Shown piece by piece: positions 35,227-38,917 of a stretch of DNA of 64,000 nt. This DNA comes from Gammaproteobacteria bacterium (GTDB taxonomy: Bacteria; Pseudomonadota; Gammaproteobacteria; Xanthomonadales; Xanthomonadaceae), in the NCBI GenBank assembly GCA_025356635.1, contig JANXRY010000080.1:1-64000 (forward strand), written 5' to 3'. The notes under the pieces are model-generated. The model made no database searches. It was not told where the DNA came from and saw nothing but the letters and a program-made list of their open reading frames with translations. Numbering within the stretch: position 1 is the stretch's first letter; every line of letters starts with the position of its first letter. The translations under genes and the position numbers were made by a program.

Positions 35227-36269
35227 CGGAAATTCTCCGACGCCAGTCGGCGCGTTGCCGTCAGGTAATCGTCGAGCTTGGCCCGCGCGGCGCCGCTGGC
35301 AAGCACGGCGCGCGCACGTTCCACGCCCTCGACGATCGATCCGGCGACGCCGGCCGCATACAAGGCGGCACCGGCATTGAGCAACACGATGTCACGGGCC
35401 GGGCCGGGCCGGTCTTCGAGCGCGGACAACAGCATCACCTTAGATTGCTCCGGCGTCTCGACCCGGATCGCGTGCAGGTCGGCCATTGCCAGGCCGAATT
35501 CACCAGGAAGTATTTCGTATTCTTCTACCTGGTCGCCACGCAATTCCGCCACCAGCGTGCCGCCGGCAAGGGTGATTTCGTCGAGGCCATCGCGGCCGTG
35601 CACGATCAACGCGTGCTTGGCGCCGAGCCGTTGCAGCACGCGCGCCTGGATGCCGACCAGGTCGGCATGGAACACGCCCATCAGGATGTTTGGCGCACCG
35701 GCTGGATTAGTCAGCGGGCCGAGTATGTTGAAGATCGTCCGCACGCCCAGTTCCTTGCGAATCGGTGCGACGTTCTTCATCGCCGGGTGGTGCATTGGCG
35801 CGTACATGAAGCCGAAACCGGTCTCTGCCAGGCAACGCGCAACCTGTTCGGGCTGCAGCTCGATTGCCGCGCCTAGCGCTTCGAGCACATCGGCGCTACC
35901 GGATTTCGACGACACGCTGCGGTTACCGTGCTTGGCGACGCGGGCGCCGGCCGCCGCCGCAACGAACATCGCCGCCGTGGAAATATTGAAGGTGTGCGCG
36001 CCATCGCCACCGGTGCCGACGATATCGACCAGGTGTTCGCGATCCGGTACCTCGACCTTCGCTGCGAATTCCCGCATCACGGTCGCGGCAGCGGCGATTT
36101 CACCGATGGTTTCCTTCTTCACCCGCAGGCCGATCAGCAGGGCCGCGGTCATCGCCGGCGAAACTTCGCCGCGCATGACCTGGCGCATGAGGTCGACCAT
36201 TTCGTCGAAGAAGATCTCGCGGTGGACGATGACGCGCTGCAGGGCATCGTGCGGGGTGATCGCCATCAT
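35223..36269 (-). CDS. trpD: Anthranilate phosphoribosyltransferase
   Basis: Joins anthranilate to PRPP. The 348-residue protein has [18 protein letters not shown] (PRPP loop), [21 protein letters not shown] and the HHPAMKNV motif of anthranilate binding. The upstream frame is open for 48 codons, but the ATGATG at 36269 overlaps the trpG stop, as in other coupled pairs of this window, so I start there; Met at 36266 is an alternative. Confidence 0.95.
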
Positions 36270-36847
36270 GGCTGGCCGATGAAATTGCGCAGCAGGTCGT
36301 GGCCGTGCTGGGTCAGGATCGATTCGGGATGGAATTGCACGCCTTCGACGGGCAGGGTTTTGTGGCGCAGGCCCATGATCTCGTCGAAGCCGCCGTCGGC
36401 GCTCTCGGTCCATGCGGTGATTTCAAGACAATCGGGCAGCGAGTCGCGTTCGACCACCAGCGAGTGGTAACGGGTCGCTTCGAAGTCGTCGGGCAGGCCG
36501 GCGAACACGCCTCGGCCGGTATGGCGGATGCGCGAGGTCTTGCCGTGCATGATCGTCCTGGCGCGCACGACCTTGCCGCCGAAGGCCTGGCCGATGCTCT
36601 GGTGGCCGAGGCAGACGCCGAGGATCGGCACCTGGCCCGACAGCCTGGCCAGCACTTCAAGCGAGACGCCGGCCTGGTCGGGCGTGCACGGACCGGGCGA
36701 GATAACGATGCGCGCGGGCTTGAGCGCGGCGATCTCGGCCACGGTCATCGCATCGTTGCGCACGACCTTCACTTCCTGCCCCAACTCGCCGAAATACTGC
36801 ACGAGGTTGTAGGTAAAGCTGTCATAGTTGTCCAACATCAAAAGCAT
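36266..36847 (-). CDS. trpG: Anthranilate synthase glutamine amidotransferase subunit
   Basis: Class I glutamine amidotransferase supplying ammonia to TrpE. The 193-residue protein begins [19 protein letters not shown], with nucleophile Cys in [15 protein letters not shown] and His/Glu in [10 protein letters not shown]. In many bacteria the same protein serves PabB. It is separated from trpE by a DUF559 gene and three palindromic repeats, so the E-G link is broken by an insertion. Confidence 0.95.
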
Positions 36848-36875
36848 GTGTTGCTCCGCTACTCGTCGTCGTTCG

Positions 36876-37262
36876 TCATTCTCCCTCTCCCGCTGGCGGG
36901 AGAGGGCCGGGGTGAGGGTGGCTCCGGCGCAATGCCAGCTCGATGCCTTCGCGAACCGCCTCCTGCATGGTCAGGATCTCATGGTTCCAAAATCGCACGA
37001 CCCGATACCCCTGCAACTCAAGAAAGCGTGTTCTTTCGGCATCATCTTCGGCTTGCTGCAGATGGTGGCCGCCATCCGCCTCGATAACCAGCTTTTCCGC
37101 AAGGCAAGCGAAATCAGCGACATATGGACCGATTGCATGCTGGCGTCGAAACTTGAATCCACCGAACTCCCTCGCCCGAAGCATTCGCCAGAGAACCGTT
37201 TCGGCTTCGGTCATCCCTTTGCGCAAAATCCGCGCCTTGACTGTGTTGTGTCTCTTGTCCAT
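36876..37262 (-). CDS. DUF559 family endonuclease-like protein
   Basis: A 128-residue protein with the Vsr/restriction-endonuclease-like fold signature: [35 protein letters not shown] (split here by the catalytic region) with [19 protein letters not shown], which supplies the acidic and E-x-D residues, and [13 protein letters not shown]. The core ends near residue 113; the last 15 residues ([14 protein letters not shown]) are encoded by the palindromic repeat at 36881-36920. The ATG lies two bases from an inverted copy of that repeat (37264-37300). The gene interrupts trpE-trpG and is likely a mobile cassette. Activity is inferred only. Confidence 0.82.
36881..36920 (+). repeat. Palindromic repeat copy A
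   Basis: A 40-base repeat with the core CTCTCCCGCTGGCGGGAGAG, a perfect 9-bp hairpin, followed by GCCGGGGTGAGGGTG. It is identical to the copy at 37376-37415 and overlaps the 3' end of the DUF559 gene. Confidence 0.9.
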
Positions 37263-37263
37263 C

Positions 37264-37300
37264 CACCCTCACCCTAACCCTCTCCCGCCAGCGGGAGAGG
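37264..37300 (-). repeat. Palindromic repeat copy B, inverted and slightly diverged
   Basis: The reverse complement reads CCTCTCCCGCTGGCGGGAGAG followed by a TTAGGGTGAGGGTG variant of the tail. Together with copy A it forms inverted repeats bounding the DUF559 gene. Confidence 0.88.
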
Positions 37301-37375
37301 AAACAAAAAGCTGGATCCGGCTTCTCGCCTCCTGTCCTGCTGTCGAGAAAGGGAACTGATGGCCGCGGCGGTACT

Positions 37376-37415
37376 CTCCCTCTCCCGCTGGCGGGAGAGG
37401 GCCGGGGTGAGGGTG
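37376..37415 (+). repeat. Palindromic repeat copy C
   Basis: Forty bases identical to copy A in the same orientation, lying 11 bases before the trpE stop. It may serve as the trpE terminator in addition to being mobile. Confidence 0.9.
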
Positions 37416-37426
37416 GGAAAGCATTG

Positions 37427-38917
37427 TCACAACCCGCTCGCCGCCTGCGCCACGGCGCGGAACAGCGCGCGGCCCTTGTTCATGGTCTCGTCCCACTCTT
37501 TCGCGGGGTCGGAGTCGTGAACGATCCCGGCGCCGGCCTGCACGTGCAGGCGGCCGTCCTGGATCACCGCGGTGCGGATGGCGATGGCGGTGTCGGCGTC
37601 GCCCCACCAGCCGAGGTAACCGACCGCGCCGGAGTAGATGTTGCGCTTGATCGGTTCGAGTTCGCGGATTACTTCCAGCGCGCGGATCTTCGGCGCGCCG
37701 GAAACGGTACCGGCTGGGAACGTGGCCTTGAGCACGTCGGCGAATGTCTGGTCGCTGCGCAGCTTTCCCGTGACCTCGGAAACGATGTGCATGACGTGCG
37801 AATAGCGCTCGATCACGAATTGTTCGCCGACTTTCACCGAACCCGCTTCGGCGACGCGGCCGACATCGTTGCGGCCGAGGTCGATCAGCATCAGGTGCTC
37901 GGCGCGCTCCTTGGGATCGGCCAGCAGCTCGGCTTCCAGCGAGAGATCTTGCTCGAGGGTCGCGCCGCGCGGACGCGTACCCGCGATCGGCCGCACCGTG
38001 ACTTCGCCGGCCTGCAGACGCACCAGGATTTCCGGCGAGCTGCCGACCACCTGGGTGCCGCCGAGGTCGAGGAAGTACATGTAGGGAGAAGGATTCATCG
38101 CCCGCAGCGCGCGGTAGACGTCCACCGGTCGCGCCCGGAACGGCACGCTCATGCGCTGGCTGAGCACGACCTGGAAAATATCGCCGGCACGGATGTAATC
38201 CTTGGCCGTTTCCACCGCGGCGATGAAACCCTCGCGGGTGAAGCCGGACACGAAGTCCTCCTCCTTGAGCAACGATGGATCGAGGACATCCGGGTACGAG
38301 GCGCCGGCGTGACGCAACCGGTGCACCAGCGCGTCGAGCCGACGCTGCGCCTTGGCCCAGGCCTGCGGCTCGGAAGGATCCGCGTGCACGATCAGGTACA
38401 GGCGGCCCTTGAGGTTGTCGAATACCGCGACTTCCTCGCTAAGCATCAGCAGCGCATCGGGCGTACCGAGCTGGTCTGGTTTGTGACCCCCGCTTTCAAT
38501 CAATTCGCGCAGCCGAGGCTCGATCCAGCCAATGGTTTCGAAGCCGAAATAACCGACCAGGCCGCCGGTGAATCCCGGCAGTCCGGGCAGGCGCGGCACG
38601 CGGAATCCTTCGCGCAGGCGATCGATCTCGGCGAGCGGATCGGCGAGTTCGCGCGATTCGATCACGTCGCCGTGTTCGCGCACTTCCAGCGAATGGCCAC
38701 GAAAAATATAGGTGCGCTTGGCCGGCAGCCCGATGATCGAATAGCGGCCCCAGCGTTCGCCGCCCTCGACCGATTCGAACAAATAGGTATGCGGGCCATC
38801 GGCGAGCTTGAGGTAGACCGACAGCGGCGTATCGAGGTCGGACAACACCTCGCGCACCACCGGGATGCGGTTATGGCCGGCGGCGGCGAGCTGTCGGAAA
38901 TCTTCGGCAGTGGTCAC
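37427..38917 (-). CDS. trpE: Anthranilate synthase component I
   Basis: Chorismate-using large subunit. The 496-residue protein has an N-terminal tryptophan-binding domain ([20 protein letters not shown], with the LLES-like feedback motif as LFES) and catalytic blocks [43 protein letters not shown] and [15 protein letters not shown]. It is probably feedback inhibited. Gene order here is rpe-trpE-[DUF559]-trpG-trpD-trpC on the minus strand. Confidence 0.96.

Follow-up and report, generated by a model that had tools for sequence, protein, structure and literature searches.

A DUF559 nuclease gene framed by inverted BoxC/PIT/TM repeats between trpG and trpE in a gammaproteobacterium

The window analysed here, a stretch of 64,000 nucleotides from a gammaproteobacterium of the Xanthomonadaceae, carries between trpG and trpE a gene for a small predicted nuclease of the DUF559 family that lies between inverted copies of a three-strand repeat. 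Nuclease and repeat go together in hundreds of genomes, which suggests that DUF559 is the partner of the repeat. The preferred reading, with a probability of about 0.7, is that a nuclease-repeat system widespread in bacteria, comparable to RAYT/REPIN and with an unrelated enzyme, is represented in the window by one complete unit. The features of the locus are listed in the table.

Table. Position of the DUF559 gene, the repeat copies and the adjacent trp genes in the window
Feature	Position	Strand	Remarks
DUF559 gene, predicted PD-(D/E)XK, Vsr-like nuclease	36876..37262	-	128 aa; domain residues 6-111
Repeat copy A, downstream end of the unit	36883..36921	+	hairpin 36883-36906, spacer CCG 36907-36909, GGGTGAGGG third strand 36910-36918
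Repeat copy B, upstream end of the unit	37263..37301	-	third strand 37266-37274, spacer 37275-37277, hairpin 37278-37301
Repeat copy C	37378..37416	+	CCG type, same as A; adjoins trpE 3' end
Proposed complete unit, ~419 bp	36883..37301	-	hairpin-tail, DUF559 gene, tail-hairpin
trpG (anthranilate synthase component II)	36266..36847	-	3' neighbour of the unit
trpE (anthranilate synthase component I)	37427..38917	-	5' neighbour of the unit

The DUF559 reading frame scores 132.3 bits against the Pfam family DUF559 (PF04480; cut-off 20.6). Its neighbours are typed as TrpG-type, TrpE, TrpD and TrpC by NCBIfam models above their cut-offs, in agreement with the position between trpG and trpE assigned in a preliminary description of this DNA. 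That description also recorded a copy of the repeat overlapping the 3' end of the gene and an identical one beside trpE, and both were recovered: copy A (36880-36921) matches copy C (37375-37416) at all 42 nt, and approximately the last 14 codons of the gene (about 15 in the description) fall inside copy A. Copy B (37263-37300) is inverted relative to A and C, as described, with 92% complementarity across 38 nt and one unpaired end base in its hairpin; it directly abuts the ATG (37262) instead of starting two bases before it. The tails of A and B point into the gene, while that of C points away, so that the unit reads hairpin-tail, gene, tail-hairpin. A search with CTCTCCCGCNNGCGGGAGAG allowing up to three mismatches found three matches in the window versus 0.06 expected, a number reached in none of 100 shuffles. 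PADLOC gave no match on the window. A sub-threshold Rfam match to mir-3718 at 37278-37353 (31.6 versus 78 bits) was judged spurious, as a chance match to the hairpin.

The home genome has one DUF559 gene and about 18 places with the palindrome (at most two mismatches). Three of the dispersed places (L006, L013 and L021) are inverted doublets with their tails inward, one (L019) has its tails outward and the others are single. The trp site of the window is also found in two other genera (G063 and G067), framed by the same repeat variant. The trpE-trpG gap (36848-37426 in the window), which the preliminary description had singled out for comparison, differs in sequence among related species (L248, L261, L263, L266, L267 and L269) and seems to be a place that varies within the genus; a clean empty site for the whole DUF559 unit was not found there in the relatives examined, the close relative G016 having another ORF between trpE and trpG. 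A target-site duplication at trp was not obtainable from G016 and the other relatives, whose gap holds other sequence. Between G000 and G016, compared at the four places with both flanks and with junctions blurred by divergence, the L013 doublet is absent, L021 is replaced by other sequence, the L017 copy is kept and the L015 place keeps one of two copies. A palindrome copy at L015:1210-1300 lies inside an apparent coding sequence and occupies the same place in G016.

The repeat consists of a hairpin, CCCTCTCCC..GGGAGAGGG, followed by a 3-base spacer, TTA or CCG, and a third strand, GGGTGAGGG. Since each copy continues as spacer and GGGTGAGGG, it is a three-strand motif and more than the palindrome noted in the preliminary description, which had seen the hairpin present in A, B and C and had overlooked the rest. 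Comparison with Table 1 of PMC4666352 reveals in all three copies the same Y-loop-R hairpin, 3-nt spacer and mirrored third strand. The window repeat is thus the published BoxC/PIT/"TM" (TMECO) intrastrand-triplex repeat and is not itself new. The accessible text of that paper describes BoxC, renamed PIT and TM, as a Y arm, loop, R arm, spacer and third strand GGGTGAGGG, with two spacer types in E. coli, TTA (type A) and CCG (type B), joined as A to B in 5/5 inverted pairs. The spacer TTA of copy B, which reads TAA on the + strand, is of type A and that of copy A of type B. The E. coli sequence forms an intrastrand triplex in vitro, while stable triplex in vivo found no support; transposase or integrase remnants and mobility genes are reported missing around the E. 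coli copies and the mechanism of spread was left open (PMC4666352, same text). No enzyme is named in that text, neither DUF559 nor ycjD nor an endonuclease, whereas the repeat here frames a nuclease gene. Of the "new mobile-repeat system" first envisaged, what appears new is therefore only the pairing of BoxC/PIT/TM with DUF559.

Unlike in the published description, further stem variants were found here (GGGAGAAGG, GGGGAGGG and GGGGGAAGG). The stems GGGAGAGGG, GGGAGAAGG, GGGGAGGG and GGGGGAAGG are matched by the third strands GGGTGAGGG, GGATGAGGG, GGGTGGGG and GGATGGGGG, respectively. Covariation was scored by the purine-motif triplet rules (G on G, A or T on A) with one randomly drawn element per site from loci that are framed by the measure given below (IR score of at least 18). 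The third strand fits its own stem perfectly at 33 of 62 sites, against a mean of 13 and a maximum of 20 when tails were permuted between sites. This covariation of third strand and stem, read from sequence, argues for a triplex and not a hairpin alone. Elsewhere, at G101:C5:229471-230154 and in L055, palindromes are spaced ~160-170 bp apart, suggestive of tandem amplification of a unit that carries the repeat.

Framing is common among DUF559 genes elsewhere. A DUF559 match was found in 71 of 149 relatives. The 350-bp upstream flank of each gene was aligned to the reverse complement of the downstream flank, and a cut of 18 on the resulting IR score was chosen after seeing the data. Among the 106 of 123 DUF559 rows of the order that were used (61 genomes; 17 weak or partial rows dropped), 71 loci reach the cut. 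A second set, the best 80 of 556 confirmed loci from named genomes, left 77 usable after removal of three with short flanks; 59 of these reach the cut, or 58 without L204, an N-run artefact. The other 35 and 18 loci, respectively, score below 18. The cut was reached by 0/167 pseudo-gene windows from the relatives' loci and 0/281 windows from the named loci. ParE genes served as an accessory-gene control: of the 30 best-scoring among many, 24 were used and six dropped, and 0/24 were framed or had a palindrome within 350 bp. Controls combined thus give 0/472. The rarity of flanking copies elsewhere, which the preliminary description would have taken as a sign of coincidence, was not observed.

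Framed loci span alpha-, beta- and gammaproteobacteria, Desulfobacterales, and assemblies of Nitrospirae, Chloroflexi and FCPU426, with many MAGs among them. Loci with flanks in common were treated as one site, which reduces the 183 loci (one genome enters twice, as L036 and L172) to 98 sites; at 71 of these at least one locus carries the inverted repeat. Framing is complete at one site (21/21 loci, the duplicated genome among them) and is seen in only six of the 22 loci at the most populated one. In Sinorhizobium two loci are framed, with IR scores of 104 and 50, and in S. meliloti pSymB the DUF559 gene lies between the arms of an almost perfect inverted repeat of 114 bp with triplex-type elements in it (L294:2349-3040). 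One gonococcal locus scores just 18 and two Azospirillum loci are not framed (IR 14). Phages yielded four weak tblastn records.

The elements are also oriented. The tail is directed towards the gene in 224 of the 251 nearest elements (116/130 upstream and 108/121 downstream; 182 loci), elements occur on both gene sides in 94/182 loci, and their density falls 12-fold, from 2.28 per kb in the 250 bp next to the gene to 0.19 farther off. The two ends of the unit are of different spacer class in 24 of 75 scored loci; an earlier, stricter spacer pattern matched 12 loci only. The arrangement of the window, TTA upstream and CCG downstream, was considered as a left/right rule, and since discordant pairs split 10 to 6 over 41 sites (p 0.45) no such rule is claimed.

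A sequence variant of the repeat goes with one particular DUF559 site. CCCTCCCCTTNAAGGGGAGGG (at most one mismatch) was found in 11 of 149 genomes, with 7-86 copies in exactly the seven genomes that have the site-2 DUF559 gene and at most two in the other 142 (Fisher p 4e-12, the copy cut of 7 being set after seeing the data). This 7/7 match adds to the support for nuclease and repeat as a cognate pair, as originally proposed. A CCCTCCCCTTNAAGGGGAGGG copy lies close to the DUF559 gene in 9/9 site-2 loci, including two with the name Luteimonas. In G099 and G046, two of the nine, the IR score is below 18. G099, with 86 CCCTCCCCTTNAAGGGGAGGG copies, belongs to another family than the other site-2 genomes, and its protein resembles most closely one from site 0; the link of the variant is thus plainer with the site than with the protein lineage. 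Over 56 sites, repeat and protein similarity correlate with a Mantel rho of 0.25 (p 0.0015). Exclusive pairing was rejected for the GGGAGAAGG variant, which is present in 54/149 genomes and not confined to those with such DUF559 ends; four DUF559-free relatives carry 6-21 copies of it.

The residues E21, D50, E61, D63 and H67, among others, are conserved at 99-100% in 176 DUF559 proteins. The window protein was modelled with AlphaFold2 (pLDDT 85), and its Foldseek matches are 3hrl (N. gonorrhoeae NGO0050; 1e-8), 3r3p (1.5e-4) and 1vsr (0.06). In profile searches it matched DUF559 and, below cut-off, MTES_1575, with no others. The model points to a PD-(D/E)XK/Vsr-like fold with active-site-type residues. 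YcjD, the E. coli member of the family, was assigned to the PD-(D/E)XK superfamily near Vsr (PMC1189080, as far as its accessible text goes). Proteins of the same Pfam family or fold, like Caulobacter VsrA and NGO0050 (PDB 3hrl), have been given proposed roles that are restriction- or repair-like. The titles and abstract openings of the DUF559 literature in PMC make no mention of such repeats, and none of the PMC matches listed, at the same depth and with bioRxiv and subscription papers outside, ties DUF559, YcjD, COG2852 or PF04480 to BoxC, PIT or triplex repeats.

The second-best fold match, stronger than Vsr, is the catalytic domain of the homing endonuclease I-Bth0305I, which is also a weak sequence match (E 9e-4). 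The two share a similar catalytic fold and a selfish nuclease logic, with the difference that I-Bth0305I is intron-borne (PDB "Mobile intron protein") and the genes studied here lie between repeats in bacterial chromosomes. I-Bth0305I stems from a phage. The likeness raises the alternative that the repeat is a target and that break repair copies the gene of DUF559, a free-standing homing nuclease, into sites bearing the repeat. The gene does recur at the same sites in different genera, and the protein of G099 is nearest to that of a different site, as homing would produce. Proteins of one site mostly form one or few clades, though, and vertical descent is then mostly enough without homing: the gene tree requires 12 changes for nine syntenic sites versus 48 when shuffled and, with few well-supported branches, points to mainly vertical descent of the DUF559 gene. 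Homing alone also leaves unexplained the spread of doublets that have no gene. It is considered unlikely.

Association between gene and repeat extends to whole genomes. The palindrome was counted as CTCTCCC(2-8)GGGAGAG. In 139 relatives (10 of the 149, with weak hits of E above ~1e-20, were set aside) the median number is 18 with a full DUF559 gene (n=61) versus 0 without (n=78; p 4e-19), and the difference holds inside the genus (p 0.0045) and in the rest of the family (p 5e-7). The phylum set comprised 397 genomes, nine of them also among the 149 relatives; after 36 weak hits (E above 1e-10) were set aside, the 361 scored genomes have medians of 14 with DUF559 (n=125) and 0 without (n=236; p 5e-47). 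Five or more palindromes occur in 91/125 genomes with the gene and 11/236 without, and label permutation within 12 of the families gives p 0.0002. The repeat is thus far from equally common where DUF559 is missing; equal abundance there had been named beforehand as the outcome that would make the pairing coincidental. Genomes that bear the repeat and no DUF559 are real exceptions: the 11 in the phylum set have up to 57 palindromes, 8/78 DUF559-free relatives have at least five, and so do 5/36 genomes with weak DUF559 hits (up to 152). Lost or diverged DUF559 genes are conceivable there.

Co-occurrence fits DUF559 as driver or as beneficiary alike. DUF559 could be a structure-specific repair nuclease that processes folded repeats, in which case the repeats would spread otherwise and repeat-rich genomes would keep the gene. 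Such a role accounts for the co-occurrence and the Vsr-like fold, and a Caulobacter DUF559 protein that brings about SOS induction once a cytosine methylase has been deleted was proposed as a VSP-repair enzyme (PMC12907096, accessible text). No cytosine methylase gene adjoins the DUF559 gene of the window, whose neighbours are trp genes. A repair role leaves unexplained the inward orientation of the nearest copies (224/251), the framing at 71/98 sites and the 7/7 match between site and variant, and it appears quite unlikely.

The repeats might instead be moved by another activity, a RAYT or other transposase, with DUF559 as cargo between two copies. Y1_Tnp is indeed associated, weakly, with palindrome number (p 0.028 overall, 0.019 in the family block; ParE p 0.27), and ends of different spacer class in 24/75 units look as if two separate repeats had met. 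The 52 genomes with Y1_Tnp and no DUF559 have a median of 0 palindromes, which rules out RAYT as a sufficient mover, and the 15 with DUF559 and no Y1_Tnp hit have a median of 5 and up to 91; passive carriage of the gene is accordingly held to be very unlikely. Note that G141:C1 carries at least 15 near-identical 152-aa Y1_Tnp genes; these probably belong to an IS200-like element and show no link to the repeat. That repeats and accessory genes merely collect in the same variable intergenic regions, as the divergent trpE-trpG gap could suggest, is hardly credible given that ParE, also accessory, is never framed (0/24), and it would explain neither orientation nor variant matching.

The DUF559 gene of E. 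coli is ycjD, between sapF and fabI. E. coli was reached via chromosome-sized records in a plasmid collection; a search of E. coli with a Cedecea locus as query gave no match. The ycjD locus of strain KE47 is covered to at least 80% in 3363 of 5426 E. coli genomes. In two other E. coli genomes examined efflux genes adjoin sapF instead, and the eef operon efflux genes have been placed beside sapF (PMC12817139, accessible text). Table 1 of PMC4666352 lists 23 BoxC copies, of which number 9 lies between fabI and ycjD, and a copy was confirmed at that position. In KE47 an intact BoxC overlaps the 3' end of ycjD, like copy A of the window, while the K-12 copy there is degenerate. By the IR measure ycjD is not framed (scores of 13 and 10). 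Directly before the ycjD start codon of E. coli lies an 18-bp hairpin formed by CACCTCATTCTGACAAGA with its complement (L292:2430-2482), which is unlike BoxC and possibly regulatory. The downstream flank of ycjD was compared with four doublet flanks, and 5, 53, 253 and 981 of 2000 shuffles did as well; this likeness, suggestive for two flanks and absent for the other two, was left unused.

BoxC doublets of E. coli are polymorphic, with gain and loss unpolarised. The hrpB-mrcB doublet of K-12 is absent in two strains (102 bp shorter) and a third has its hairpins fused into one. The fepB-entC doublet lies within a 186-bp stretch missing from two other strains. At alx-sstT one strain has kept a single hairpin and another has a different, longer sequence, a case better read as deletion between hairpins. 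No clear target-site duplication was seen at the polymorphic doublets. In four cases the doublets have the structure hairpin-tail-spacer-tail-hairpin and measure 86-102 bp. Three of the four share a common spacer (scores 22-23 over 28-29 nt; 0/1000 shuffles each), and so seem to have been copied from a single unit of 101-102 bp; the fourth differs. In ST131 and similar strains there is a hint of fewer repeat places together with the absence of ycjD, which follows lineage and is misfitted by the O157 rows.

Under the preferred reading, a small PD-(D/E)XK nuclease would be encoded between inverted copies of its own recognition element, BoxC/PIT/TM, in which the gene-side third strand mirrors the purine arm of a GC-rich hairpin. 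The nuclease may recognise the folded repeat on single-stranded or extruded DNA, e.g. at replication forks, and nick or cut there; repair or strand transfer would then copy the repeats, largely as short inverted doublets, to new intergenic sites. DUF559 would in this way be responsible for recognition, cleavage, movement and copying of the repeat, while its own gene would stay at relatively few sites and be passed on mostly by vertical descent, like a domesticated RAYT beside REPINs. The mostly vertical gene tree fits such a domesticated partner better than an active transposon.

RAYT genes have palindromes on their flanks and are mostly vertical, and domesticated RAYT genes sit beside REPINs. 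The likeness to REP/REPIN-RAYT lies in small palindromes arranged as inverted doublets, a copy number that goes with the partner gene, and a partner gene flanked by palindromes and mostly vertical. The differences are the enzyme, a predicted PD-(D/E)XK nuclease and not a HUH Y1 transposase, and the three-strand repeat. No GTAG/CGTC tag is in register at the hairpins and none lies within 12 nt of copies B and C; one CGTC is near copy A.

A broader proposal, for which the chances are put a little short of even, is that DUF559 enzymes are guided by structure, recognising a triplex or hairpin in DNA and spreading copies of it through the genome. They would define a bacteria-wide class of mobile repeats in which the BoxC/PIT repeats of E. 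coli, along with similar ones in Sinorhizobium and Xanthomonadales, are non-autonomous derivatives, variants are served by their own DUF559 genes, and the mobiliser is a Vsr-like nuclease acting alone, in place of any transposase or HUH enzyme. DUF559 is a candidate enzyme for the spread of BoxC: its genes are framed by the repeat, and their presence predicts the number of repeat copies and, in one case, the sequence variant. The candidate is testable in E. coli K-12, where ycjD and the 23 listed BoxC copies are known. If the reading is true, a common domain family would gain a function and an enzyme class would be added to the makers of mobile repeats; triplex-capable DNA would then be kept because a protein recognises it, as is suggested here.
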